A DNA stretch of 64,000 nt. Origin: Rhodococcus sp. SMB37 (GTDB taxonomy: Bacteria; Actinomycetota; Actinomycetes; Mycobacteriales; Mycobacteriaceae). Below, piece by piece: positions 3,436-63,515 of the stretch. The stretch's first letter is position 1. Every line of letters begins with the position of its first letter. The notes under the pieces are model-generated. The model saw nothing but the letters and a program-made list of their open reading frames with translations, was not told the origin of the DNA and ran no database searches. The position numbers were made by a program, and so were the translations under genes. The stretch covers positions 186,001 to 250,000 of the forward strand of contig NZ_SLVY01000003.1 in assembly GCF_004345605.1 (NCBI RefSeq), given 5' to 3'.

Positions 3436-4086
3436 TCATGCAACGGCTGTACGACTGTCGGTGATCGAGGCTCGCAGGTCCGAGTAACGAATCGTAGGTA
3501 GGTCCCAGTGCTGGGCTTCGTCGATACCGGCCTCGCGGCACGGATCGATGCGGGACACCAGGGAGGCGAATGCCACCGGAAAGCCCTGCACATCCGCCCC
3601 GGCCGCTGCGCAGAGGTACCCGGCTTCCGCGATCAAGCGTGGTCTGCCGGGTGCGTTCTCGTCTGCAGCAAGGACAGGGATCACGTGGCCTGGGCGGGTG
3701 AACGAAGTGGGAGTCGATTGTCGATCTCCCAACGTGCGCAGAGTGACTGCGCGGTCCTGCGCGGAGATGCCGGTCGTGACGCCTTCTGCTGCGTCGACCG
3801 CCACGCACATCCGACCACCGAACGAATTATCGGCTTCCCAAACCATCGGCGGCAGGCACAGGCGATGAGCATCGAACTGGCTCACGGTGACGCAGACGAA
3901 CCCGCTTCCTTCACGAATCATTTCGGCCACTACGGGCGTCGACGCGCGCCGGGCCAGGACCATCATGTCGATGCCGGTGCCGTTCAGATCGTCCACTGCC
4001 AGCACGGGGCCACCGGCCTGCAGGGCTTCGATTGCAGAGTCGAGGGCCGAGCTGCGCATGCAGCGCTGTGCGATGCTCATCGCCAT
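3436..4086 (-). CDS. RibB-like (3,4-dihydroxy-2-butanone-4-phosphate synthase fold) protein, active site degenerate
   Basis: About 216 residues that track RibB along their length: a VDDxN segment, GFVCVTV, RLCLPPM, VAVDAAEGVTTGISAQDRA, then TRPGHVIPVLA. The residues that define DHBP synthase are altered: the acidic loop usually read as RExEGD is LNGTGID, and the GHTEA segment near the end is IAEAGY. This is a RibB homologue but probably not a normal DHBP synthase. It lies 3-6 bp after the SnoaL-like gene and 46 bp before the flavin reductase gene, so it is in the flavoenzyme operon. Possible roles are another ketose-phosphate or flavin-related reaction, or a non-catalytic part. GTG 4089 is an alternative start. 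Confidence 0.6.
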   Translation of the reverse strand: MAMSIAQRCMRSSALDSAIEALQAGGPVLAVDDLNGTGIDMMVLARRASTPVVAEMIREGSGFVCVTVSQFDAHRLCLPPMVWEADNSFGGRMCVAVDAAEGVTTGISAQDRAVTLRTLGDRQSTPTSFTRPGHVIPVLAADENAPGRPRLIAEAGYLCAAAGADVQGFPVAFASLVSRIDPCREAGIDEAQHWDLPTIRYSDLRASITDSRTAVA

Positions 4087-4092
4087 CACCTG

Positions 4093-4488
4093 TCAGCCGG
4101 CAAGTCCGGTCGCGGACCAGAACGCTTCGAACGAGGACGGCACGAGATCGTTGCCGCGCACGACCTTGCCGTCGACGAATCGGTGGCCCATGACCATCGT
4201 GATATCCAGTTCGTGTTCGCCGAGCTTGCGGTATGCCCGGATCTTGGCGACCACGAGTTCGTCGTCGATCACATCGCAGCTGACCACTTCGTTCGCGGAG
4301 GCGTCGAGTTTGGCGAGCACACCGAGACCCTCCAGGAATTCCGCCTTGGTGTAGACCCGCTGTGTGCCGTCGAAGGTGAATCCGGCCCAGGTCATCGTGT
4401 CGTCGTACAGGTCCAGGAGGGGTGTGGGATCGCCTTGGTCGGCAGCGGCGAAAGCCTTGGTGAGCGCGTCGGCGTTCTGCTGTGTCAT
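4093..4488 (-). CDS. SnoaL/NTF2-fold protein
   Basis: A 131-residue protein: N-terminal helix NADALTKAFAAADQGD, then the DDTMTWAGFTFDGTQRVYTKAEFLEGL pattern and alternating beta strands ending VVRGNDLVPSSFEAFW, as in the SnoaL-like cone-shaped fold. Family members are small isomerases, hydrolases or cyclases, or have no known activity. The start ATG 4488 has an ideal ribosome site (ACGGAGGT, 4-bp spacing), marking this as the first gene of the leftward operon that continues with the RibB-like, flavin reductase and nitronate monooxygenase-like genes. It is divergent from the LuxR-type regulator across 260 bp. Confidence 0.75.
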   Translation of the reverse strand: MTQQNADALTKAFAAADQGDPTPLLDLYDDTMTWAGFTFDGTQRVYTKAEFLEGLGVLAKLDASANEVVSCDVIDDELVVAKIRAYRKLGEHELDITMVMGHRFVDGKVVRGNDLVPSSFEAFWSATGLAG

Positions 4489-4748
4489 CAGTACCTCCGT
4501 ACGTAGGAATGTGGTCCACACCACCTTCGCAGCGACAACGAGGTGCGGTAACCGTCCGATCACGTGACCGTGTACGGGGGCGTCCAGCCACGACTCCCGG
4601 CGCCATTTTCGCTGGTGAAGGCCTATCCTATCGAGAAAGGGGGTGGCGCATGTTCCGCCGACGACCGAAAGTGACACATCTTGACCCCCCATGTTGCGGT
4701 GCGTCACCTTCGGCCAGCAGAGTGATACGCGTCTCATAGGAGGTGCGG

Positions 4749-7394
4749 TTGAACGCCGACGAGTGGTTCGAAATCCATCAGTGCCGTGGCGAAGGTGAGT
4801 CGATCAAGGGCATTGCCCAACGGTTGGGTATCTCCCGGAACACGGTGCGCCGAGCTCTTGCGATGTCCGAACAGCCGAACGACCACCGACGATTGAAGGG
4901 ATCGGTGGCCGACGAGGCGGATGCACGCATCCGGGACCTACTCCAACGGTCTCCGAGCATCTCCATCGCAGAGATAGGCAGATGCATCATGTGGAGCCAC
5001 TCGCGAACACTTCTCGTACGTAAGGTGAACCAGATCAAGAGCGAGATGACCACCGTTCCCTTCGATCCCCCCTCGATCGGCACCGGACTTCCGCAACATC
5101 CCACCAGTTTCGTCGGACGGCACCACGAATTGCGCGAGATCCGCCGTCTACTCGGTGACCACAGGCTGGTGTCGGTCGTCGGCCCCGGAGGGATCGGAAA
5201 GACCCGACTCGTCGTACGAGCAGCGGAAGAGTACCGACGGGCGTTCGCCGACGGAATCCGCTTCGTGGAACTCGCATCCCTACGTAGCGAAAGCTTGGTG
5301 AGCCAGGCGATCGCCGATCGACTCGGACTCGAAACCCGCGACGGCCCGAACAACTCCGCCGACGACATCCTCGTCGAGTACTTGCGCAACCGAAGGATGC
5401 TCCTGATCCTCGACAACTGCGAACATCTCGTCGACGGGGTCGCAGCCCTCGTCAGCCGCCTGACCGAAGAAACGCGCAACCTGCGAATCCTCACCACCTC
5501 GCGGGAGTACCTGGCAATCCCCGGCGAGTACGTCTTCCACCTTCCGCCACTTTCCATCGACGGTGGTAAGGAATCTGGAGCTGTCGAGTTGTTCGCCAAT
5601 CGCGCCGAGTCCGTGCTGTCCGGCTTCGAACTCAGCGACTCGAATGTGGACGCAGTCAGACGGATCTGTCAACGGCTCGACGGACTTCCCCTGGCCATCG
5701 AACTGGCCTGTACTCGCTTGAACGTCCTTTCGGTCGAGGACCTCGCGGAACGACTGGATCGGCGTCTGTCCATGTTGACCGTCTCCGCACGCGGACGCAC
5801 ACCGAGACACCGGAGTCTGCAAGCGACGATCGACTGGAGTTACGAGTTGTGTTCGGAGACGGAACGCATCTTGTGGTGCCACACTTCCGTCTTCGCCGAC
5901 AGTTTCGACATCGGTATGGCGGTGGCTGTGTGCTCGGACGATGCGCTGTCCGAGGACGAGATCATGGAAGCAGTCGCCGCGCTCGTCGCCAAGTCAGTGG
6001 TGGTGCGTGAGATCTCGGACAACGGGGTTCGCTTCCGGCTGCTCGAATCGATACGGGAATACGGATGGGGGAAACTGACCATCCCGGAACGCCGTCACAT
6101 GAACGAACGGCTCCTCGAATACTGTGCCCGTATCGTCGAAGAGTCGACCACCTCCTGGTACGGACCCGAGCAGCTGACGAAGGCGACGGCGGTCTCGATC
6201 AACCGCGGAAACATACGGGCTGCACTGCATTCGGTGATGAACACCCCCACCGATCCTGCACTCGTAGAACTGGCCGCTGACACGCTGGGATCCTCGAGAT
6301 TCCTGTGGGCCTGCGGAATCTCCGTACGCGAGCACAGAATGTGGTTGACGCAGGCACTCGACCTGCCCGGAGTCTCGAGGACCGCACGCGGACGTATCCT
6401 CACCGTGCTCGCATTGGTTCAGACACTTCAAGGTGATCGAGATGCGGCCGACTTCACCTTACGCAGGGCACGCGAGCTCGCCGGCGACCGCGAAGATCCG
6501 GTCACCAGATCATTCGCGGTCCATATCGCAGGACTGCGGGACTTCTTCGCCGGCCGAGCGGATTCCGGGATGGCATACCTCGACGAGGCAGAACGCGGAT
6601 ATCAACTCCACGGCTGTGATCCGGAACTGGTATCGATGTTGCAGGTCCATCGAGGCATGCTGCTCTGCTCCACGCAGGACGTATCCGGCGCCGCCGATGC
6701 TTTCAGCCGAGTGTTCACCAGTACCGACGAGATCGGCGAACTCTGGTTCCACTCCTACGCGACCTACGGACTCGGCCACGTCGCACTGCTCGAGAACGAT
6801 CCGGACACCGCTGCCCAGCGCGCGCTCGAAGCACTTCGCTACCAACGAGAGTTCGCCGACCCGATCGGCAAGACAGTGATGGCAGACCTTCTGGGATGGG
6901 CACTCGCCGAGCAAGGCCACGGTGCACGCGCCGCGGTCGTGCTGGGCGCGGCCTCATCCATGTGGGGATCGATCGGTCGACAACTCTACGGTGCAGATCA
7001 CTGGAATACCTTGCGCGCACGCGCAGTCGATACGGCACGGCACCACGTCGGCGGTTCGGCATTCGATGCCGCATGGGCCCGAGGCCAGGCCATGACCGCC
7101 CCCGAATTGCTCGCCTACATCTTCGACGAAGACTGTGCCAAGCACGATCACCCTGCCCCAGACCGGAGTTACTCCGCCCACGCAACAGCTAGGGCCGATG
7201 CCTCCCAACTCGACCTTCTCTCACCCCGTGAGCGAGAGGTCGCCGAACTGGTCGCACAGGGACTGACCAACAAACAGATCGCCGGGAGGCTCGTGCTGTC
7301 ATCTCGTACCGTGGAAGGGCATGTGGAGCACCTGCTACGCAAGTTGTGCCTTTCGCGACGAACCGAGGTACCTCGAGCACTGTTCGCGACGTGA
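4749..7394 (+). CDS. Large ATPase regulator with LuxR C-terminal HTH and IstA-like N-terminal HTH
   Basis: An 881-residue regulator. Residues about 1-95 carry a helix-turn-helix (GESIKGIAQRLGISRNTVRRAL) plus a second helical segment laid out like the N-terminus of IS21 IstA transposases. A STAND/AAA-type ATPase follows with Walker A GPGGIGKTRL near 145 and Walker B MLLILDNCEHL. A helical TPR-like region follows, and a C-terminal LuxR HTH (LLSPREREVAELVAQGLTNK, then SSRTVEGHVEHLLRKL). The TTG at 4749 has AGGAGG five bases upstream; the GTG at 4743 overlaps that site. It is divergent from the flavoenzyme operon and probably controls the cluster, with the ATPase/TPR part sensing a ligand. Two DNA-binding domains in one protein is unusual. 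Confidence 0.85.
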   Translation: MNADEWFEIHQCRGEGESIKGIAQRLGISRNTVRRALAMSEQPNDHRRLKGSVADEADARIRDLLQRSPSISIAEIGRCIMWSHSRTLLVRKVNQIKSEMTTVPFDPPSIGTGLPQHPTSFVGRHHELREIRRLLGDHRLVSVVGPGGIGKTRLVVRAAEEYRRAFADGIRFVELASLRSESLVSQAIADRLGLETRDGPNNSADDILVEYLRNRRMLLILDNCEHLVDGVAALVSRLTEETRNLRILTTSREYLAIPGEYVFHLPPLSIDGGKESGAVELFANRAESVLSGFELSDSNVDAVRRICQRLDGLPLAIELACTRLNVLSVEDLAERLDRRLSMLTVSARGRTPRHRSLQATIDWSYELCSETERILWCHTSVFADSFDIGMAVAVCSDDALSEDEIMEAVAALVAKSVVVREISDNGVRFRLLESIREYGWGKLTIPERRHMNERLLEYCARIVEESTTSWYGPEQLTKATAVSINRGNIRAALHSVMNTPTDPALVELAADTLGSSRFLWACGISVREHRMWLTQALDLPGVSRTARGRILTVLALVQTLQGDRDAADFTLRRARELAGDREDPVTRSFAVHIAGLRDFFAGRADSGMAYLDEAERGYQLHGCDPELVSMLQVHRGMLLCSTQDVSGAADAFSRVFTSTDEIGELWFHSYATYGLGHVALLENDPDTAAQRALEALRYQREFADPIGKTVMADLLGWALAEQGHGARAAVVLGAASSMWGSIGRQLYGADHWNTLRARAVDTARHHVGGSAFDAAWARGQAMTAPELLAYIFDEDCAKHDHPAPDRSYSAHATARADASQLDLLSPREREVAELVAQGLTNKQIAGRLVLSSRTVEGHVEHLLRKLCLSRRTEVPRALFAT

Positions 7395-7415
7395 ACGGAA
7401 CCATCGGGCCCGCCA

Positions 7416-7443
7416 CGCCCGGGCCGCCGGAGCGGCCCGGGCG
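7416..7443. terminator. Bidirectional terminator hairpin
   Basis: Perfect 12-base arms CGCCCGGGCCGC (7416-7427) and GCGGCCCGGGCG (7432-7443) with a 4-base loop lie between the convergent LuxR-type and monooxygenase genes, 21 bp from each stop. Confidence 0.85.
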
Positions 7444-7464
7444 GACTCGTAACGCACCCGGCGA

Positions 7465-8664
7465 TCAGCCCTGCTGATAGCCGGGCAAGATCGCCCCGGC
7501 CGCATCACTCAACGTCATGCGGTCGATCAGAGCGTGCTGAGTGGCAACAGCTGCGTCACGGACGCACCGGCCCAGCACGCTGGGGTTACGAACCGTGGCA
7601 CTACCGGCCCAGCGGTGAGCAAACATCACGACATCGCCCGCGACCTCCTGAACCCAGGTCGCAGCCTGCCGTAGACGCGCGTGCTGCTCGTCGGAGATCG
7701 GCAGTCCTGCTGCCGCGGTCTCCTCCGCATCCCCGAATACCTGGTAGACGTAGGCACAGGCGGCCTTGTACAAGGCTTCGTGGCGGGCGAACTCGATACG
7801 GAAGACATCGGAGTCACCGACGGCACCGTCGTATCCGGGCCGGACCTTCCCCGCGACGATGCGGGCGATCTCCTCCAAGGCTCGCTCGGCCAGCCCCAGT
7901 GCCACAGGTGCGTGGCCGCCGACACCGATGCCCAACAGCCCGAGCTTGTACACGGACTCGGGCCGGACTGGAACGGTCGAGAAGGTGTTCATGGTGAACC
8001 GCTCTGCGACGAACACGTCGGTCACGCGGTAATCGTACGAACCGGTGCCGACCATCCCCATGACGTCCCAGTTGCCGAGGAATTCGATGTTCTCCCTGGG
8101 GATCCAGGCGATACGGGCCTCGGGCTGCCCGTCCTCTCCCACCATCGGATTGCCCTGGTCGTCGTGTACGACGAAGCCTGCGCCGATCCACGATGCGTGG
8201 GCCGAGCCGCTGGCGAACTGGAAGCGGCCGGTGACACGGTATCCGCCGTCGACTCGCACGCCTGTGCCGGTGGGGACGATCATGCCCGCTGTGATGCCTT
8301 TGTCGACACCTGCAAACATCTCGCGCGCACCGTCGGGATTCGTGTAGCCGACCGCAACACCGGTGCTGCAGGAGTTGGCCATGAACGCCCAGCCCGTGGA
8401 GCCGTCGGCGCGTGTGATCTCCTGGACCACCTTGAAGGCACTGACGATGTCGAGGCCGGCACCGCCGTATTCGTCCGGCACCAGAATCCAGAACAAGCCC
8501 GCCTCCGCAAGCGCCTCGTAGACAGGCCGAGTGATCGTTGCTTCTGTTTCGATGGCGTTCGCTTCGGCCTCGATGACCCTGGCTACTTCGCGGGCGCGAT
8601 CGAGATACTCGGCCCCGCGAGCTCGCTGCTGATACGTCGAGAGAACGGGCGCGGTGATTGTCAT
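7465..8664 (-). CDS. Acyl-CoA-dehydrogenase-fold flavin monooxygenase (HsaA/HpaB-group D)
   Basis: A 399-residue protein with the acyl-CoA dehydrogenase fold: N-terminal helices, ILVPDEYGGAGLDI, a STGWAFMANS segment, GRFQFASGSAHASWIGAGF in the middle beta domain, and a C-terminal helical domain ending GAILPGYQQG. Length, the GRFxFASG segment and the missing acyl-CoA catalytic Glu context favour the two-component flavin-dependent hydroxylases (HsaA-like) over true dehydrogenases. The start is ATG 8664 (MTITAPVL) behind AAGGA. Its reductase is probably the product of 2874-3389. Substrate is unknown; a cyclic or aromatic compound is likely. The operator at 8754-8775 lies about 90 bp upstream. 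Confidence 0.78.
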   Translation of the reverse strand: MTITAPVLSTYQQRARGAEYLDRAREVARVIEAEANAIETEATITRPVYEALAEAGLFWILVPDEYGGAGLDIVSAFKVVQEITRADGSTGWAFMANSCSTGVAVGYTNPDGAREMFAGVDKGITAGMIVPTGTGVRVDGGYRVTGRFQFASGSAHASWIGAGFVVHDDQGNPMVGEDGQPEARIAWIPRENIEFLGNWDVMGMVGTGSYDYRVTDVFVAERFTMNTFSTVPVRPESVYKLGLLGIGVGGHAPVALGLAERALEEIARIVAGKVRPGYDGAVGDSDVFRIEFARHEALYKAACAYVYQVFGDAEETAAAGLPISDEQHARLRQAATWVQEVAGDVVMFAHRWAGSATVRNPSVLGRCVRDAAVATQHALIDRMTLSDAAGAILPGYQQG

Positions 8665-53805: not shown

Positions 53806-56800
53806 TCACCGACTCCACTCCGCGTGACGATCCAATTCCCGCGCGAGCACATCGAACCGCGGGTGCCGCGACCACGCCGCACGATCCCCGATCACATACA
53901 GGCGCTGCTTCGCCCTGCTCACGGCGACGTTTACAAGATTCGGTTTCGACGACGCCCACCGCTTCGCGCCTTCACGGGCCGGGTCGCCTCCCAACACCAG
54001 GACGACGACCTTCGCCTCCCGTCCCTGTGCGGTGTGCACGGTTCCGGCGGTGATCCCGTCGTACCGGGAACGCAATCCCGCGAGGCGCCGCGCGACGTCC
54101 CGGAAGGGACTGAGCACGATCACGTCGTCCATCGGATGTTCCCTGCTCACCAGGTCCTCGAGAAGTTCGACGAGTCGGTCGTGTTCGGCCTGCACGAAGT
54201 GGCCGTTCGACGTCCCGGTCACGTCGTACCACTGCGACGGCGGCAGATCACCGTCCGGCTGCGGATTCCCTCCGTGGATCATCGTGCCGCCGTACGCGAT
54301 GGTGTTGACGACAGAGAACATCGGCTCGGCACAGCGCCGGTGCACACGCAGGGGCGCACCCACCCAGATCGGTTCGTCGTCGCCTCGCAAGGTCGTTCCC
54401 CACCGAGTGAGACGGTCGGCGATGGACTGGGTCGACGACCGCCCAGGCAACCACCGTTCGTCCACGCCGAACGCACCTCGCACCGCCTGCTGTGCCCGGA
54501 ACGGCAGAGTCACCACAGGTTCGAGTTGTAGCGGGTCGCCCACGACGACGGTCCGTCGCGACCTCCAGATCGCACCGACCGGGTTCTGCGGTGTCGCCTG
54601 GCCGGCTTCGTCGATGAGCAACCAGCCGAGGGCTTCACGTCCGAGCCCACGGAATACCCGGTCGAAGGAGGCGAACGTCGTCGACACGAGCGGGACGACG
54701 AAGAACAATGTGCGCCACGCGTCGGCGACGGCCGCCGGATCCAGGTCGTGTGGCGCGTTCCCTGCGACGACGTCCATCGCCCCATGCATGCTCTGACGCA
54801 TCTGTTTCGGCACCTGCGCGAGGAACTCCTTGTGGAGCGCGAGCGCTGCCACGAACAGTCGTGACCGTGCCTCGTTCAGGGCCATGTCCGACCACGGCGC
54901 GGCCAGCTCTCGGTCCGGGTCGTCGGCCCACTCCGGCCCCGGCATCGCGCCACCCCACCTCTGCCGCAACTCGTCGAGAGTGCAGTCGAGTTCGTTGCGG
55001 CGATACCGCACTGCGTCGGATCGCTGGGCGAGTTGATCGTGGGTGCCCCGTAGGTCGACCAGCTTCTGCATGGTGTGCTGGTGTGCTGCGAACGCGTCGG
55101 CGTACTTCTCTTCCCACACCGCGAGTGCATCCGTCAACCGGGTGTGGTGGGACTGCCAGAGCCGACGTTCCTCGCGTGCGCCGCGGCTCATCCGCCACCA
55201 CGCCACACGCTGCTCGTTGTGCGCGGCGAGTTCGTTCTCGACTGTGGCCCGGCCCTGCTGGAGACGGTCGACGGTACCGCGTTGCACCACTTCGATGCCG
55301 GCCGCGGAGCGAAGTGCCTCGGTGTGGGCCTCCACCTGGTCGAGGACTGCTCGCAGTTCGCTGTCGCGGTGGGCTCGCTCGCGGTACCGCTCGTACCCGT
55401 GCTGACGTTCGTCGATCATCGCGGCAACAGCGTCGCGCGCGCGGCGATACTCTGCGACGGCGTCGTGCCATGATCTGGTCGGCCCGGCCGATTCGAATTC
55501 CTTGAGGATCGACTGCAGTCCTCGTCGAGTGGCCTTCTTTCCGCTGCTCTTCTCGTCGAACCAGAGCGTGTTCGTGAATCCGGTGCGGTAGCTCTTTCGT
55601 CCGAGCCGGGCGGCGGTCAACCCCCAGGCCTTCGAATCCTTGCCGGTGTCGTTCAAGAGCGCCGTTGCGATGTCTGCGAAATAGTCGGTGTCGAACCGGT
55701 CGGAATGGATGGCGTCCGCTGCGGGCATCTCGAAGCTGATGTTCTCGACAGCACCGTTGTTGGACGAGGCCACCACGATCTCGAATCCGTGGAAGGCGTC
55801 TGTCCACCGCTGCACAACCCTCGTGTACTCGCCGGCTTTCCAGCGGTGTGGCGTCGCCGTGAACGCGTCGGCCGGGCTCGCGAGATGCGCGAGACGATCG
55901 GCGCGTTCGACGACGACCGCGGCGACGAGGTCGCGCAGCAGCGTCGATTTCCCTGTCCCCGGTGGCCCGTTCACCGCGAAAATCCCGGCGTTGCTGTGTA
56001 ACTCGTCCATGATCGTGTTGACGGCGAACTGCTGCCCGAGCGCCAAGGGATGTTCGGGCTTTCCTGGCCACCGGCCGGGCGGAATTGCTTCGGGCCGGCA
56101 CGCCACGAACGACGCAGCCGGCACAGCACTGACGTCGACGCGTCGGGCCGTGTCGAGCACTGCGTCCTCGGTGAGGTAATGCGCGAGTCCGGTGCCGATG
56201 TCTCCGGCGGCGACTCGGCCGGCGACCATCCCCAGGTCGGCGGCGATGAAGCTGTTGAGAAAGTCGGTGCCGTCGACACCGTCGGACTGCTTGACCTCCA
56301 CCGACCGGACACGGATCTCCGCGCAGTCGATCATGCCGTTCACGCCCACAAGCGCGGCGATACGTCGCCGTATCGCCGAGAGCCGTTCGGTGTCCAGGGG
56401 TAGGCGGCATCCGCAACGGGGGTTGATGTGCTGTTCGTCGTCGAGGAGTTCGGTCAGAAGTTTCTGCGCGTCGTCCAGTCCGTGCAGCCAGGACGCGGAG
56501 CCCGGTCCCGGGTTGCAGGTACGCCCGGCCGCCCACGCCAGCCCGGACAGCACTTCGGACCCGGAAACGACACAGCCGTACTTGTCGACGACGAGTGCCG
56601 CCAGCGCGCATTCCCCCGACGGTCGCGGATCGTAGTTCTCCTCACCAGGGGCGAGGATCTCGTCGACAGCGGACCACACATCGTCGATGCGGTACACGCC
56701 GAAGTAGACGATGTGCTGCCGCTCGTAGCCGGCGCGTCGCGGAGATATGCGCAGCCGATGGCCGTGTTCCCACGGCAGCAGATCGCGAGGCGTCACCTTC

Positions 56801-56916
56801 TCCACGGGCGACAGAGTGTCGAACTTGTCGACCTTCGGTACCTGCTGAGGGCTGAACAACTCCACCGCTCGCCAGAACTCGATGATGCCGCCCTGCCGAT
56901 GATATTCCGCGTCCAC
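53806..56916 (-). CDS. SF1 helicase with long helical insertion (Upf1/Dna2-like)
   Basis: A 1036-residue protein. The N-terminal 290 residues have no recognised domain. The helicase follows: Walker A GPPGTGKS (317-324), Walker B DEAGQ (769-773), motif III GDPLQLEP (793-800), TAQGREAKV (962-970) and motif VI NVAVSRAKQRLYVIGD (996-1011). About 240 residues rich in Glu, Arg and Ala (near 470-660) separate motifs I and II and look like a coiled coil, as in AAA_11/AAA_12-type helicases. The start is GTG 56916, with GAGGGGGA upstream. It has no nuclease or methylase partner and is divergent from the type VII cassette. A role in RNA/DNA surveillance or phage defence is possible but unproven. Confidence 0.88.
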   Translation of the reverse strand: MDAEYHRQGGIIEFWRAVELFSPQQVPKVDKFDTLSPVEKVTPRDLLPWEHGHRLRISPRRAGYERQHIVYFGVYRIDDVWSAVDEILAPGEENYDPRPSGECALAALVVDKYGCVVSGSEVLSGLAWAAGRTCNPGPGSASWLHGLDDAQKLLTELLDDEQHINPRCGCRLPLDTERLSAIRRRIAALVGVNGMIDCAEIRVRSVEVKQSDGVDGTDFLNSFIAADLGMVAGRVAAGDIGTGLAHYLTEDAVLDTARRVDVSAVPAASFVACRPEAIPPGRWPGKPEHPLALGQQFAVNTIMDELHSNAGIFAVNGPPGTGKSTLLRDLVAAVVVERADRLAHLASPADAFTATPHRWKAGEYTRVVQRWTDAFHGFEIVVASSNNGAVENISFEMPAADAIHSDRFDTDYFADIATALLNDTGKDSKAWGLTAARLGRKSYRTGFTNTLWFDEKSSGKKATRRGLQSILKEFESAGPTRSWHDAVAEYRRARDAVAAMIDERQHGYERYRERAHRDSELRAVLDQVEAHTEALRSAAGIEVVQRGTVDRLQQGRATVENELAAHNEQRVAWWRMSRGAREERRLWQSHHTRLTDALAVWEEKYADAFAAHQHTMQKLVDLRGTHDQLAQRSDAVRYRRNELDCTLDELRQRWGGAMPGPEWADDPDRELAAPWSDMALNEARSRLFVAALALHKEFLAQVPKQMRQSMHGAMDVVAGNAPHDLDPAAVADAWRTLFFVVPLVSTTFASFDRVFRGLGREALGWLLIDEAGQATPQNPVGAIWRSRRTVVVGDPLQLEPVVTLPFRAQQAVRGAFGVDERWLPGRSSTQSIADRLTRWGTTLRGDDEPIWVGAPLRVHRRCAEPMFSVVNTIAYGGTMIHGGNPQPDGDLPPSQWYDVTGTSNGHFVQAEHDRLVELLEDLVSREHPMDDVIVLSPFRDVARRLAGLRSRYDGITAGTVHTAQGREAKVVVLVLGGDPAREGAKRWASSKPNLVNVAVSRAKQRLYVIGDRAAWSRHPRFDVLARELDRHAEWSR

Positions 56917-57061: not shown

Positions 57062-57373
57062 ATGGGGATGACCAACACGCTCGAAGCCGACCTGCCACAA
57101 ATCCGGTCGGTGTCACGCCACTTCGATCTGCACGCCGAAGAGCTCTGCGAGATCGACACCTCACCGATGAGGGCTCATTCGACAAACGGATTCCTGCAGG
57201 TGTCGTCCGTCGCCGCCGCGCTCGGCGACGCCGAGGCAGCAACCCGCCGCGCCCTGTTGATCCTCGCCGATAGATCATGGGCACTGCACGACACCATGAA
57301 CCGCGTGTGTGAGGACTACTCACAAACCGAGGAACACTTCAGGGACGAACTCGCGAGGGCAGTGTCCGCGTGA
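57062..57373 (+). CDS. EspC-like ESX/type VII secretion-associated protein
   Basis: A 103-residue helical protein: MTNTLEADLPQIRSVSRHFD, then HAEELCEIDTS, ALGDAEAATRRALLILADRS and a C-terminal YSQTEEHFRDELARAV. Length and the helix-turn-helix hairpin pattern suit the EspC/DUF2580 family, which pair with larger type VII substrates. A Y-x-x-x-E-like motif (YSQTE) precedes the end, as in ESX export signals (YxxxD/E). It overlaps the next gene by 4 bp (ATGA-type, GTGA). ATG 57062 follows a GGGGGA; ATG 57068 is an alternative. A truncated copy lies at 44448. Confidence 0.65.
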   Translation: MGMTNTLEADLPQIRSVSRHFDLHAEELCEIDTSPMRAHSTNGFLQVSSVAAALGDAEAATRRALLILADRSWALHDTMNRVCEDYSQTEEHFRDELARAVSA

Positions 57374-59760
57374 TTCCCTCGGTATCCGATGTACGTCAAT
57401 GGAATTGGTCGGCGCTATCCGAACAGGTGATCTCAACAGAGTCGGTCGCCACCCGACTCGAGGACGCCCGCGACTCGATCCACGCATCCACCAACGACCT
57501 CTGGTCTGCATGGACAGGTATCGCTGCCGACGCCGCAGCAGACCACCTCGACCGCGAACGCAAGTCCGACACCAACATCTCCTACGAACTACGCGAAATC
57601 GCCTCCGCCACCAGAAGAGCCGACGAAGATCTCGCACACGCAGCCCGTGTGGCTCTCGACAGAATCGCCGCCGCCGAACGAGCCGGCTTCACTGTCGGTG
57701 ACGGGGGCGTCACCGCCGGGCCAGACTTCACAGGGGTCTACGAGGGAGAACCCGACGCCGCCGCGCATTGGGGCATGATTCAAGACGCACTGCGCGTGAT
57801 CGGTGAGGTGGACGACGACCATGCACGCCGCATCACCGGCATCGTCTCGAACCTCATCGACGTCACACCATCACCAGCAGCCTTCTCCCCCGACGAAGCC
57901 GCCCACGACTGGGCCATGCTCACCGATGGCACGGTCACGTCCGAAGATCTGGGACGGTTCACCACGAACCTTGCCGCAGCCGGACTCGACCCGCAGTCTC
58001 TCGATGAGCTTGCGAAAGGCAAGGTCGTCACCGCCCTTCCAGCAGGCGCGTTCAGCTACCTCGAGAACCTGTACGGCGAAGCCGGAGCGGATGGCGTCAT
58101 GGAGTTGCAGCAGCAACTCCTTGCCGACGGCAGTACCTCAGCACTCGACGCCCGCGACAGTCTCGCAAACGGAATTCTCACACTGTCGAACGAACACGTC
58201 CGCGACGTCGACGACGACCGCGGCGGATGGGACCGCCTACCACAGGACGTCCGCGACCTCGTCGGAGCGCGCCCCGGCTCGGCCCAGCTCGACGGTTACC
58301 AGGTCCCGCCCACCTTGTCCGCATTCATGGACACCTTGCCGCCCGACATCCGGAGCGAGCTCGAGTCCGAGCCAGGCGCCGCGGCCACTGCACACCGCAA
58401 CGCACTCGCCGATCCGGCTGACGCCGCCTACATCGACTCCGTGATCCGCGGGCGCGAATTCTGGGACTTCGTCGGAACAGGGAACGGCACTCCCGGCGCC
58501 GAACTCGGCACGAAACTCGTCGAATCGGCCGCATCCCAGGCATCCGTGCTCGATACGCCCGGATCCGGCACCTCGCCGTACGACACCATCCCCATCACGG
58601 TCGGTCATGCCGGCGAATCGATGCTCGACGTCGCCACGAGCAACCACGACGTCAGTGCCCGTGTGCTTGCAGGAGACCTGAACGGAGACGGCCGCACCGA
58701 CATTCAACGCGACGACATTCTCACACCACTGTTCACTCATGCCTGGGACGACGGTGGAGAGTCCGCAGGACGCCTCACCAACTGGATGACCCACGAGATC
58801 GGCGACGCCCACGCTGCCGGCGACCCCGCACGTGCCGACCGCGCGGAGCTCGCCGCGCTCCACCTGTCGCAGTATCTTTCACACGAAGCGAGCTTCGACC
58901 GATTGATGGACGTCCACGGCGAGAACACCTCCAGTATCGGTGAGGTGAATCCCGGACTGGTTCGAGCATTCGCCGACGGGTTGCATGGGTACATCCCCGA
59001 ACTTGTCAGGGCGGACGCGTCAGGGGCCTGGAAAGAGGACAACCTCGATTCACCCAATTCGAACGAGAACGCGCGTCGCATCTTCACTCTCATGGCGACG
59101 GATCAGGAATCCAGTGCCATATTCGGAAGCGCGGCTACTGCATTCGGTCGGTACTACGCAGACGACTTCGTCGAAGGCCCCTCGTATCTCGGTGCTTCCA
59201 ACGCGGGTCGCCTCCAAGCGCTGCTCGATACCGGCATCTACAACGCAGGAAGAGAAATGTTCGACGACCGCGCTCGGATCGATGAGTTCGTGCAGCAGCG
59301 CCGAGAAGACACGTTCAACACGAACTACACGATCATCCGGAATCTTGTCGCACTCGATCCCCGCCTCAGCGGCACGGTCGGACTCTTGATGGACGTCAAC
59401 AGCACCTCTATCCGAGACACGTTCGTGCCGGCATTCGATAACCCCGAGCTGACCCCGTTCACCGGCGACTTCAGTCGATACAGCGCGCCGAACGCGTACA
59501 ACCTGCTGGAGAATGCGGTGGGGCGGTACGGATTGCCGGACGATCCCACCATCGTGGACGACCTTCGCACACTCGGACTGTTGAGATCCGACGGAACACT
59601 CACCTACCCGAGCGGCGACCCCTCCCTCGACAAAATCACCGACCTCGCCGACCGGACTTTAGAGACACACGGAATCGACTTCTCCACCTTCCGCGAGCAC
59701 TACATCGACGCATACGGAAGCGTCGCACCTACTACAAGGGAGTCGAGCAGCCCACGATGA
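57370..59760 (+). CDS. Large type VII-associated protein: WXG-like N-terminus and TPR-like region
   Basis: A 796-residue protein. The N-terminal 90 residues look like a WXG100/LXG helical hairpin (WSALSEQVISTESVATRLED, then LWSAWTGIAADAAADHLD, with W-T-G at the turn). The body is helical, with LPAGAFSYLENLYGEAGADG repeating the pattern of mycobacterial TPR-region proteins, and a DLNGDGRTDIQRDDILTP loop that resembles a calcium-binding DxDGD site. No catalytic motif is recognised. Start GTG 57370 overlaps the EspC-like stop; its stop overlaps the lipoprotein ATG. It is probably the secreted component of the cassette, with unknown activity. Confidence 0.7.
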   Translation: MIPSVSDVRQWNWSALSEQVISTESVATRLEDARDSIHASTNDLWSAWTGIAADAAADHLDRERKSDTNISYELREIASATRRADEDLAHAARVALDRIAAAERAGFTVGDGGVTAGPDFTGVYEGEPDAAAHWGMIQDALRVIGEVDDDHARRITGIVSNLIDVTPSPAAFSPDEAAHDWAMLTDGTVTSEDLGRFTTNLAAAGLDPQSLDELAKGKVVTALPAGAFSYLENLYGEAGADGVMELQQQLLADGSTSALDARDSLANGILTLSNEHVRDVDDDRGGWDRLPQDVRDLVGARPGSAQLDGYQVPPTLSAFMDTLPPDIRSELESEPGAAATAHRNALADPADAAYIDSVIRGREFWDFVGTGNGTPGAELGTKLVESAASQASVLDTPGSGTSPYDTIPITVGHAGESMLDVATSNHDVSARVLAGDLNGDGRTDIQRDDILTPLFTHAWDDGGESAGRLTNWMTHEIGDAHAAGDPARADRAELAALHLSQYLSHEASFDRLMDVHGENTSSIGEVNPGLVRAFADGLHGYIPELVRADASGAWKEDNLDSPNSNENARRIFTLMATDQESSAIFGSAATAFGRYYADDFVEGPSYLGASNAGRLQALLDTGIYNAGREMFDDRARIDEFVQQRREDTFNTNYTIIRNLVALDPRLSGTVGLLMDVNSTSIRDTFVPAFDNPELTPFTGDFSRYSAPNAYNLLENAVGRYGLPDDPTIVDDLRTLGLLRSDGTLTYPSGDPSLDKITDLADRTLETHGIDFSTFREHYIDAYGSVAPTTRESSSPR

Positions 59761-60509
59761 AACATCCCACCACCGGAAAAACCATCATCGTGATCGTCAC
59801 CGCAGCATTGACCTTCACGACAGGAGCCTGCGCAACACCCGACCCCGTGCCGACACCACCTGAACCCGAACAGGTCTCCTTCGCAGCACTCGACGCCGAC
59901 GCAAAACTGATGTCACATCGCTGGAATGCACCAGACGGTGTTTCACTCGACTCACGAGAACTACAAGCGGTCCGGTCCTACATCGAAAGCGCAAGCACCT
60001 ACGACCACACGGCAGATCGAGCCAGCGTCCACCCCGGATTCTGGGATGTCCGAACCCAATGGGAAACCACTCCCATACCTGAATACGGGACGGTCTACCA
60101 CCACATCCTCCTGATCGAACCCTCCGTCCACATCGGCGAACCCGTAACAGAAGTATTGGTGTGCAGCGACTATATGAACACCGCGATATCCACAAAATAC
60201 GCATGGATACGCATCCATACAATGCGGTACACGCCCCTACGAATCCGACTGTCCACCGACGGCCCTGCCACCACTCCAGCACTCGACTACGAGCATCGAC
60301 TTCCCTATCCGACGTGGAATGTATTCGAAGGCCTCGAAATAGAACGAGCAGATGGCGACCGCGGCAGCAAGAGGCCCATGTGGACCATCTGCGATGAGGA
60401 CATGCCGGGATACAACCCGGAAGCACCCCAAGAGGAGGAGCTTCCGGCCGCGCCCGTCGTCGAACCGTTCTACCCCGGCTGGCCGACCCTCCTCGACGAG
60501 CATCCATAG
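59757..60509 (+). CDS. Lipoprotein of the type VII cassette
   Basis: A 250-residue lipoprotein (lipobox TGAC, Cys25) followed by a Pro-rich linker (PDPVPTPPEPE) and a globular domain with ELQAVRSYIESASTYDHTAD, HHILLIEPSVHIGEPVTEVL and IRIHTMRYTPLRIRLSTDGP. I recognise no family. Its ATG overlaps the stop of the 796-residue gene by 4 bp, so it is made with it. It may be an immunity-like or surface partner; that is inference. The C-terminus is Pro/Glu-rich. It seems less GC-rich than its neighbours. Confidence 0.7.
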   Translation: MKHPTTGKTIIVIVTAALTFTTGACATPDPVPTPPEPEQVSFAALDADAKLMSHRWNAPDGVSLDSRELQAVRSYIESASTYDHTADRASVHPGFWDVRTQWETTPIPEYGTVYHHILLIEPSVHIGEPVTEVLVCSDYMNTAISTKYAWIRIHTMRYTPLRIRLSTDGPATTPALDYEHRLPYPTWNVFEGLEIERADGDRGSKRPMWTICDEDMPGYNPEAPQEEELPAAPVVEPFYPGWPTLLDEHP

Positions 60510-61003: not shown

Positions 61004-62125
61004 TCACTGCGGTCCCGCATCCCCTGCACGAGCGGTCTTTCGCCGCCAGTGATCGCGGTCGTCGTCGAGCATCCACTCGACCACGTCGCCGTCGGGGCGG
61101 ACGGCGTCGGTGAGCCAGTGGGTCTCGTCTGGTGCCCACCCGGCGATCACACTCGCGGCATCTTCGTCGACGTCGATCGCGGTGCCCGCCGCGGCGAGAT
61201 ATCCCGTCACCGTGAGGTGCACTCCCCCGTACATTTCGGCGACGCGACTCCAGTCGGGCATCACCCAGCGACCGTCGCGGCCGGTGGTCCGGTACCAGTC
61301 GTGACGTTTCTGCGCCGTCACCTCCAACGGGAAACGCCGGCACAAATCGGCCCACGCATCGGCGCCGTCGATCTCGAACACCTCGATTCCCGACGGCACC
61401 GGCATGCGTCGAGCGAAGGCCCGCTCCCAGCCCATACTGTCTTCGATGAACAGGACGCCCGCCAGCAACCCGTCATCAAGAGACCGCGCCGAACAGCGCG
61501 CCTCCCCCGGAAAAGACCACCACTCACCCGAGAAGTTCGCCTTCGGGTCTTGCGGGCGCTCGCGTTCCGCTTTGGCTTCCTGGTCGACGACGCGGTCGCG
61601 CCATGCGACCAGGCAGTCGGTGAGCGGCTCTTGTTCGGGGGGTTGCTGCACAGATGATTCGGCAGAATCGGCCCAGCCCACCGACCATTGGTCGTCGCGA
61701 GCCACCTCGGTCGGCCACCAGTCGACGTGAGGTGACTGCGCGATGTGGTCGGCGACGCGCCGCAGTTCTCGTCGCATGGGGGTGGTGGCGGCGAGGATGT
61801 CTTCCCCGTCGGGTTCCTGCCAGTAGCGGGCATTGTCCACCGCCATCCCGAGCGCCGAACGCAGGACCGCTGCCGTCACCTCGGGGAGCAGCACGGTCGA
61901 GAGCTTACGGGCGACCTCCTCCGGTGGAAGGTCGGGCAGCGGCTCGTCGGCACCCGGGCCGTACAGGACACCCGGGTTGGGGTCGAGGTTGTGTGCGGCG
62001 TAGAAGACGGCGGAGTTGAAAGAACTCCGGTCGTAGCTCTGCCAGGTGGCGCGGTCGGCTTCCCGCGCAAATTCCAACAACAACCTGCGGCCGCGAGGGC
62101 CTGTCAACAATGCGTTTGCCGTCAT
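61004..62125 (-). CDS. Uncharacterised 373-residue protein with a paralogous relic nearby
   Basis: A soluble, Trp- and Asp-rich protein that I cannot assign. The N-terminal half is helical (LTGPRGRRLLLEFAREADRA, then LRSALGMAVDNARYWQEPDG, with VDWWPTEVARDDQWSVGW); the C-terminal half has FPGEARCSARSLDDGL, MGWERAFARRMPVPSGIEVF, GADAWADLCRRFPLEV and HDWYRTTGRDGRWVMPDW. The pattern is regular and clearly coding. A deleted copy of its C-terminal half lies at 53570-53698, so it belongs to a small local family. Its start is ATG 62125. It faces the type VII cassette across 494 bp. Confidence 0.75.
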   Translation of the reverse strand: MTANALLTGPRGRRLLLEFAREADRATWQSYDRSSFNSAVFYAAHNLDPNPGVLYGPGADEPLPDLPPEEVARKLSTVLLPEVTAAVLRSALGMAVDNARYWQEPDGEDILAATTPMRRELRRVADHIAQSPHVDWWPTEVARDDQWSVGWADSAESSVQQPPEQEPLTDCLVAWRDRVVDQEAKAERERPQDPKANFSGEWWSFPGEARCSARSLDDGLLAGVLFIEDSMGWERAFARRMPVPSGIEVFEIDGADAWADLCRRFPLEVTAQKRHDWYRTTGRDGRWVMPDWSRVAEMYGGVHLTVTGYLAAAGTAIDVDEDAASVIAGWAPDETHWLTDAVRPDGDVVEWMLDDDRDHWRRKTARAGDAGPQ

Positions 62126-62207: not shown

Positions 62208-63407
62208 TCAGTCCAGCGATCGATACACGCGTGACTCGAATTCGAGGAACCCGTCGACAGATGCGCGGTCGGCGAACGGCAGGATCTGCGTCGCCCAGAT
62301 CCCGGCGACATCTGCACTACGATCGATCCAGTAATACAGATTTGCCAATCCGGCCCAACTCAACGATCCGGCGCTGCGACCTGTAGGCGCTTGCTCTTCG
62401 TTGACCATGAAAGTGTAGGCCCACGTCTTGCGCTGCCCGGGAAAGAATTCTGCGTCGTTCGACAGTTCCGGCTCGACGCCGGGCAGCATGGTCACCTGAA
62501 GATTGCCGAGACCGTTGATCGCGGCGTTCGCAACGGTTTCCGGCTGCAGCACCCGGCCATGTTCACCTTCGCCGTCGTTCAGCCACATTTGCAGAAAACG
62601 GCTGTAGTCACCGACGGTCGAGTACAGACCGTGGCCACCCATATCCACCTCGGGTTCCTGCGGCAGCACCAGACCGGTCGGTTCCAGCGTCCCATCCTCT
62701 CCACGTTGGTGGACCTCAGTCCGCCGGTCCTCCATCGACGGAGTCAGAACGAATGATGTGTCGCTCATTCCGAGAGGGCCGAATACCCGCTCCGCCATGA
62801 CCTCCCCGAGTCGCTTCCCGCGAATGGCCTCGACCACCAGCCCCGCCCAATCGATGTTGGATCCGTAATTCCACCGGGTGCCGGGCTCGAACAACAACGG
62901 GGTGTTCAAGGCGGCACGAGTTGCTGTGATGACACTCGGATGCACGCCGTCGACGACGAGACGATGATACGTCTCGTCGAAGAACGAATAGCCGAGTCCG
63001 GCCGTGTGCAACAAGAGCATTCGTGTGGTGATCGGCGTCTTGGGAGCTCGCAACTTCAGTGCCCCGGCATCATCGAAACCCTCTGCGACGGACAGGTCTG
63101 CGATCTCGGGAACATAATCCGAGGCGGGAGCATCGAGGTCGAGCAGCCCCTCCTCGACGCACTGAAGCACCGTCGTTCCGGTGATGGCCTTGGTCGTGGA
63201 GAACATCGCGAACACTGAATCTGGCTTCATGGGTGCCGCATCGTTCAACGACCGGACACCGGCCGCACCCTCGTACACGGATCCTGTCGAGCGCGTCACC
63301 GCGGCAGCCACACCGGGAACGAGGTCGGGGCCATTTGGAGCGGTGGTGACATCGGCGAGGGCATCGTCGAGCGTCGACTTCAACGGAGATTGTTTCAGCG
63401 TGGACAT
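62208..63407 (-). CDS. Beta-lactamase-fold serine hydrolase (class C/EstB-type esterase)
   Basis: A 399-residue protein with S70-T-T-K73 (SxxK), Y181-G-S183 (YxN/S position), and a C-terminal [20 protein letters not shown] segment with the third motif. [13 protein letters not shown] is typical of EstB-like esterases. It probably hydrolyses esters rather than beta-lactams. The start ATG 63407 follows GGAAGGAT; the frame extends upstream but is shadow. It is in the same direction as the AraC gene, 108 bp downstream of it. Confidence 0.88.
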
Positions 63408-63515
63408 TTCGATCCTTCCGGTGTGATCAGCAGCACAACGAAAGGTAGGGCGATCGCTCACCCGGTTACGTCCGCGATCGGCAGCAACCGTCTTCAATCG
63501 GCAACAACGACTCGG

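Follow-up and report, generated by a model that had tools for sequence, protein, structure and literature searches.

The TslA-TilA-TlaA1/2 set of Staphylococcus aureus comprises a lipase toxin of a type VIIb secretion system (T7SSb) with lipoprotein immunity, as outlined in PMC10730906. Here we examined a 64,000-nucleotide stretch of Rhodococcus sp. SMB37 (RefSeq GCF_004345605.1, contig NZ_SLVY01000003.1, positions 186,001 to 250,000; hereafter the window), which lies on contig C3 in a genome of 6.2 Mb and carries a cassette of three adjacent genes encoding a small protein, a large protein of the Pfam family TPR_23 (PF23275) and a lipoprotein (Table 1). On balance, sequence comparison makes it probable that this cassette encodes a polymorphic effector of a type VIIa secretion system (T7SSa) and its cognate lipoprotein immunity protein, used between related bacteria. 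Immunity is the best-supported role for the lipoprotein because of (i) the lipoprotein arrays; (ii) the co-variation of the tail of the large protein with the first lipoprotein; and (iii) the occurrence of stand-alone lipoproteins.

The cassette resembles the S. aureus set, as far as the latter is described in these sources, in that small helical partners accompany an exported effector (here predicted), an immunity lipoprotein (likewise predicted here) is encoded next to the toxin end (PMC10730906), and tandem lipoproteins vary in copy number and sequence between strains (PMC10730906; PMC9484751). TslA has its domains in the opposite order and includes a lipase, whereas the large protein here has its ESX-like part at the N-terminus and gave no lipase match in Pfam. 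The window lipoprotein has no Pfam family. The order of partner, effector and immunity gene is also that of the Lap-LXG-immunity loci of T7SSb (PMC10730906). As in LXG toxins, the N-terminus of the large protein is more constant and the C-terminus more variable; unlike in these toxins, no LXG domain was detected in the window large protein, as LXG is absent from the four families listed for it at E<=1. A review states, in its passage on LXG proteins, that none is associated with T7SSa (PMC10765036). The WXG100-polymorphic toxin-immunity sets of Mycobacterium abscessus prophages likewise combine a WXG100 partner, a WXG-headed large protein and a downstream immunity gene, and their export by Esx-3 or Esx-4 has been hypothesized (PMC9434293). 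Those sets are prophage-borne, some have recognized toxin domains, and no lipoprotein is named in the passages that describe them (PMC9434293), whereas here one conserved TPR_23 body is combined with lipoprotein arrays. Strings of non-identical immunity paralogues are known as the tandem esaG, tsaI and tipC genes of Bacillota, which belong to other protein families; recombination is reported to drive the copy number of esaG and tipC and was not found for tsaI (PMC9484751). A segment centered on Gly/Pro in homologues of the large protein recalls the glycine zippers of membrane-depolarizing T7SSb toxins (PMC12744356). The mycobacterial EspA/EspC and EspE/EspF substrate pairs likewise place a small protein of the EspC family next to a large EspA-like one. 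To our knowledge, these pairs have no such lipoprotein array. No description of a TPR_23-lipoprotein cassette as a toxin-immunity system was found in the literature searched, and the conserved TPR_23 body, the EspC-type partner and the lipoprotein arrays set it apart from the Lap-LXG-immunity, TslA-TilA and prophage sets.

Variation of the tail and distribution of the lipoproteins

Pairs of related cassettes were picked by shared peptide words (31 pairs; 30 after a duplicate of the window pair was dropped). Across the 31 pairs, mean amino acid identity was 0.81 for the small protein and 0.86, 0.87, 0.87 and 0.83 for segments 1 to 4 of the large protein. It was 0.64 in the last fifth of the large protein and 0.59 in the first lipoprotein, or 0.68 when the lipoprotein that matched best was taken instead. 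Over the 30 pairs, the last fifth and the first lipoprotein were correlated in identity, with a rho of 0.81 and a partial value of 0.76 when the first four fifths were controlled for; rho was 0.19 for segment 1, 0.13 for segment 2 and 0.12 for the small protein. When one pair was taken from each of 12 independent groups, rho was 0.78 for the last fifth (p=0.0026), and segments 1-4 taken as a mean gave -0.02. Change points in 12 picked pairs fell at window residues 686-724 in seven and at 536, 583, 594 and 759 in four; the twelfth (144) was an artifact of a split frame, and the bins of this pair still drop at 720. The change point of the window pair was at 724 (91% identity before, 66% after) and was the least well supported of the 12. 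Family-wide, a more constant N-terminal part is thus joined to a variable tip that is coupled to the adjacent gene, with a weaker contrast in the window pair.

At the DNA level, several pairs have a divergent patch bounded by conserved sequence. The L112/L113 pair is 88% identical up to codon ~722, then does not align, and is again 87% identical from 225 nucleotides before the end of the lipoprotein gene. Identities of 98% and 92% were found on either side of the patch in L122/L124, and of 95% and 88% in L101/L102, where the sole lipoprotein of L101 continues into the second of L102. By a strict rule, with both the body and the downstream flank well above the patch, such patches were found in 9 of the 30 pairs, representing four groups; the body alone was above the patch in 21 of 30. 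Two related loci were detected in named genomes: that of Rhodococcus sp. HNM0563 is 89% identical to the window cassette, and that of Rhodococcus sp. JCM 9791 is 99% identical, with the frame broken in the record. The window pair is among the 21 in which the body is above the patch; its upstream flank aligns at 91% and the downstream flank does not align. HNM0563, the closest intact relative, has five lipoproteins compared with one in the window, whose copy is 45-53% identical to four of them and 84% to the fifth. At the DNA level this fifth copy is 93% identical to the window gene, and the match includes the last ~18 codons of the preceding large gene, which we interpret as what is left of a tail that was exchanged.

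The distribution of the family was examined in 251 genomes sampled from the family of the host, where TPR_23 was found in 95 genomes and 19 of 31 genera; an order-level sample gave 16 of 200 genomes, six of them outside this family. Among 63 cassettes (60 fetched and three of the genome of the window), 59 had a small gene called upstream and 51 a downstream gene of lipobox type; the conserved order that was to be looked for in other mycolata with ESX genes elsewhere was indeed found. The arrangement is more than a chance one, as the overlap was exactly 4 bp at 31 of 59 small-gene junctions and 27 of 51 lipoprotein junctions, with gene starts chosen by set rules and at least three small-gene calls wrong or broken. 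Lipoproteins missed by the lipobox rule were later added by a profile search. The lipoprotein profile, built partly from the same 251 genomes, matched 98 of them; in 82 the match reached E<=1e-9, and the remaining 16 had matches between 1e-5 and 1e-3 only.

Arrays were compared among the matches listed (150 lipoprotein and 150 TPR_23 rows), and the counts in this paragraph apply to these. Lipoproteins lay within 20 kb of a TPR_23 match in 134 of 150 cases, all on the same strand, 131 downstream and three upstream. The 91 TPR_23 rows with lipoproteins had one (65 rows), two (18), three (3), four (3), five (1) or seven (1). Both families were present in 72 genomes, and three held the lipoprotein only. 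When 15 of the 16 distant lipoproteins were examined (L125 and L127-L140), 11 had neither a partner nor a large gene within ~4 kb, three were beside a truncated or internally deleted large gene, and one was beside a large gene keeping its N-terminal part only. The 11 stand-alone copies represent about seven independent sites, since L127-L129, L133/L136 and L137/L138 share neighbors.

Individual loci illustrate the range of arrangements. The same stand-alone lipoprotein was observed in the same gene neighborhood in three genomes (L127, L128 and L129), and is possibly a long-kept orphan immunity gene. At L139 (genome G007, reverse strand, 3992-7618), partner and lipoprotein are present and the large gene keeps only profile positions 20-192 and then diverges. 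A large-gene fragment (profile 545-637) lies downstream of the lipoproteins of L055, and a TPR fragment remains at L053. Genome G052 (L085, 5066-7923 along the reverse complement) has three lipoproteins in a row whose mature part is the C-terminal domain of the large protein, with homology to profile positions 396-603 and not to the usual lipoprotein family. In genome G160 (L106), TPR_23 stands behind a lipoprotein-type N-terminus without a WxG head, and the partner gene was not found by the set rules. These two variants would place the domain outside the cytoplasm, if their signals work.

The window lipoprotein, predicted as such from its signal peptide and lipobox and still read so, had no Pfam match and was found at E=1e-22 by a profile of 44 homologues from other clades, its own being left out. 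The lipobox cysteine C25 was invariant in 47 of 47 family members, which is partly built in because the alignment members were chosen by the lipobox pattern. Two more conserved cysteines and conserved WSA, WNVF and YPGW stretches also mark the family. Pfam matches among the 47 members were one DUF3558 and one TPR_23, and no solved structural relative of the family was found.

ESX-type modules, secretion machinery and locus

The match of the large protein to TPR_23, a family entitled 'ESX-1 secretion-associated protein EspA-like, TPR repeats' in Pfam, scored 166.5 bits against a curated cut-off of 27 bits. Of 63 cassettes, 58 have a WxG motif within residues 41-60, compared with a mean of 1.8 and a maximum of 7 after shuffling, and W48 was invariant in an alignment of 50 sequences (A2). 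The N-terminal part of the large-protein family profile matched CFP-10/ESAT-6 chains of the PDB at E=3e-6 (best) to 5e-5; the large protein alone did not reach the WXG100 cut-offs (17.5 versus 27.3 bits for PF06013; 19.6 versus 44.85 for TIGR03930). The expectation of an ESX-type module followed by a TPR-like body is supported at the level of the family. No catalytic family was detected at E<=1 in the window large protein by Pfam or at E<=0.01 in 50 homologues, as had also been supposed. The small protein of the window matched no Pfam family at E<=1 when searched alone. It was found at E=2.5e-15 (for 10,000 sequences) by a profile of 41 homologues from the same position in other clades, and such homologues matched EspC (PF10824) in 24 of 45 and WXG100 in 10 of 45, both at E<=0.1, in line with the ESX-type module proposed for this gene. 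Yxxx[DE] was present in 37 of 56 small homologues (shuffle mean 12.6, maximum 24), after 3 of 59 small-gene calls had been dropped as wrong or broken. The small protein thus looks like a divergent EspC/WXG-like partner with a YxxxE motif. Type VII substrate pairs typically combine WxG in one protein with YxxxD/E in its partner; in the window, WxG is on the large protein and YxxxE on the small one, both motifs being enriched over shuffles.

The original prediction stated that no secretion machinery is nearby, which agrees with a whole-genome search for EccD: all 19 candidates were scored, and a single locus was identified, on another contig than the window. One EccE was found with 19 of 105 candidates scored, and the WXG100 genes of the genome were two neighbors above the cut-off and two weak matches elsewhere. 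EccD, EccE and the WXG100 pair all lie within C2:448,800-460,505, and EccB, EccC and MycP are presumably encoded there as well, judging from gene order. The genes that flank this locus we take, by eye, to be rplM, rpsI, glmM and glmS, a neighborhood that we assume to be the usual place of ESX-4. No T7SS or candidate exporter was detected in this genome other than this ESX-4-type locus, which includes EccE, lies apart from the cassette and probably exports the putative effector. A survey likewise reports ESX-4 in Rhodococcus (PMC4791881). The co-occurrence with ESX genes anticipated for the cassette was also observed, with an EccD match in 94 of the 95 TPR_23 genomes (the exception, G230, has EccE) and more than one match in 33 of 95; this is weak evidence, because EccD was found in 241 of the 251 sampled genomes anyway.

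Table 1. Features of the cassette, with positions in the window
Feature	Position	Strand	Evidence
Small EspC/WXG-like export partner, 103 aa	57062..57373	+	ORF call; profile of homologues
YSQTE, residues 86-90 of small protein, YxxxD/E-type motif	57317..57331	+	Motif enrichment vs shuffles
Large TPR_23 protein, 796 aa, GTG start, putative effector	57370..59760	+	PF23275 E=1.2e-48
WxG motif (WTG), residues 48-50, N-terminal ESX-like part	57511..57519	+	Position conserved in family
Two-part TPR_23 match (residues 202-305; 320-472)	57973..58785	+	Pfam model
Moderately hydrophobic stretch, residues 655-673	59332..59388	+	Site of Gly/Pro hydrophobic segment in many homologues
Variable C-terminal tip, from ~residue 720	59527..59757	+	Change points in pairs
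Candidate cognate immunity protein: lipoprotein of 250 aa with lipobox Cys25	59757..60509	+	ORF call; homologue profile

The three open reading frames (ORFs) have the coordinates originally given, with an overlap of exactly 4 bp at each of the two junctions; that their products are made in fixed proportion, as had been added, does not follow from gene overlap. Codon-position composition looks coding for all three, and coding character is weakest in the lipoprotein, where the third-position content of guanine plus cytosine is lowest (0.64, compared with 0.78 for the small and 0.74 for the large gene). A further suggestion, of a possible DxDGD-type metal site in the large protein, was rejected: the stretch DLNGDGRTD (residues 436-444) is present but lies in an indel-rich loop, D.[DN]GD was found in 4 of 63 cassettes, only in the branch of the window, and is missing at that loop in the closest intact relative (L105), and FG-GAP in the large protein was below its cut-off. 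Two more cassettes were observed in the same genome, at G000:C31:4483-7927 and G000:C18:126921-131250, the latter with two lipoproteins. Adjoining the window cassette is a superfamily 1 helicase-like protein of 1036 amino acids (53806-56916, minus strand; AAA_11/AAA_12). Downstream of the cassette, also on the minus strand, are a protein of 373 aa that has no Pfam match at E<=0.001 (61004-62125) and a beta-lactamase-fold protein (62208-63497; PF00144, E=1.2e-59).

Competing explanations, proposed mechanism and significance

Several results weigh against a toxin-immunity reading. No toxin domain was recognized in the large protein, its hydrophobic stretch is modest in the window, and the structure models had a mean predicted local distance difference test score (pLDDT) of 46 and 36, which makes them too poor to use, also for seeing a hairpin. 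Segments 4 (rho 0.68) and 3 (0.45) also track the first lipoprotein, so the coupling is not always confined to the tip, and co-transfer alone would correlate tip and first lipoprotein without binding, because they are neighbors. The tips align with one another over their full length, with no swap between unrelated folds. By the strict rule, 21 of 30 pairs, including the window pair, did not have a patch, and 9 of 30 had no clear patch at all. For 59 of the 150 TPR_23 rows listed, none of the listed lipoproteins lay within 20 kb; part of these rows are second halves of a gene or fragments of it, and in 22 genomes TPR_23 rows alone were listed. Finally, the ratio of nonsynonymous to synonymous substitution rates (dN/dS) of the window lipoprotein was 0.96, a high value that was not repeated in 22 other pairs.

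The coupled variation and adjacency of tail and lipoprotein would also be expected of a surface assembly, in which an exported TPR_23 protein docks by its tail on the lipoprotein at the envelope (for adhesion, nutrient uptake or cell-wall work) and the two co-vary through binding without toxicity. The genome with TPR_23 behind a lipoprotein-type N-terminus and the other with lipoproteins bearing the C-terminal domain of the large protein fit such an assembly, as do the roles of mycobacterial T7SSa in nutrient acquisition mentioned in a review (PMC10765036). It has no obvious need, however, for arrays of up to 7 divergent copies, for replacement of tail and lipoprotein between sister strains, or for lipoproteins without a large protein; immunity is favored over docking because of the arrays, the stand-alone copies and the decayed large genes, and we consider the docking explanation unlikely, if a serious competitor. 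Protection also accounts better for legacy lipoprotein arrays than does kin or mating recognition tied to ESX-dependent DNA transfer, with tail and lipoprotein as a surface identity pair and no killing. Polymorphism between strains, flanked in some pairs by conserved DNA, is compatible with such recognition, and T7SSa systems have been linked to horizontal gene transfer in the same review (PMC10765036); no DNA-transfer family was found in 10 further window ORFs scanned, the helicase-like protein excepted, and we regard this explanation as improbable. An equally slim chance is given to an EspA/EspE-like substrate that is directed at a host and has the lipoprotein as its chaperone or anchor, in which case the variation would reflect immune or predator pressure. 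The EspA-like title of TPR_23 and the EspC-type partners speak for it, but the spread across 19 of 31 sampled genera does not, and lipoproteins kept beside decayed large genes are not predicted by it.

For the favored reading of effector and immunity lipoprotein, the following mechanism is proposed. The EspC-like protein and the WxG N-terminus of the large protein would pair as a helical bundle, with the WxG turn and the YxxxE tail as export signal, and the pair would leave through the ESX-4-type locus on the other contig. The TPR_23 body would bear the variable tip, which may harm related cells without the matching lipoprotein, acting either at their cytoplasmic membrane or outside it; an extracytoplasmic position of the immunity protein would point to a target at the membrane or wall. 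Membrane damage by the tip is the favored guess, based on the Gly/Pro-centered hydrophobic segment that was judged by eye to stand shortly ahead of the variable tip in many homologues. This step is a guess because the 19-residue hydrophobicity mean exceeds 1.2 in only 15 of 63 large proteins and peaks at 0.96 in the window copy. The lipoprotein, anchored outside via Cys25, would neutralize the tip and shield the producer and its kin; new modules of tip and lipoprotein would arrive by recombination, and older lipoproteins may persist downstream as an array. Overall, the original prediction is supported in part: its ESX modules, TPR-like body, lipoprotein, layout of effector, helper and immunity partner, and recurring order find support, and its metal site does not. 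The wider proposal, of a chromosomal and family-wide T7SSa system for interbacterial toxin and immunity that works via ESX-4 in bacteria where no other ESX was detected, and in which a TPR_23 body would deliver a small changeable tip and arrays of lipoproteins would confer immunity, is put forward more tentatively, at a little short of an even chance.

ESX-4 is described as the ancestral ESX system of actinobacteria (PMC4791881), and further ESX-4 substrates are still to be identified according to a study of M. abscessus (PMC11791044). A common cassette, in a genome with an ESX-4-like locus as the only T7SS detected, provides concrete candidate substrates of ESX-4, and the matrix of putative toxins and immunity proteins is directly testable. 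If the favored reading is true, type VII bacterial competition, which is well documented for T7SSb of Bacillota, would extend to T7SSa, and if the wider proposal holds as well, the 'EspA-like' TPR_23 proteins would be weapons, not host factors.

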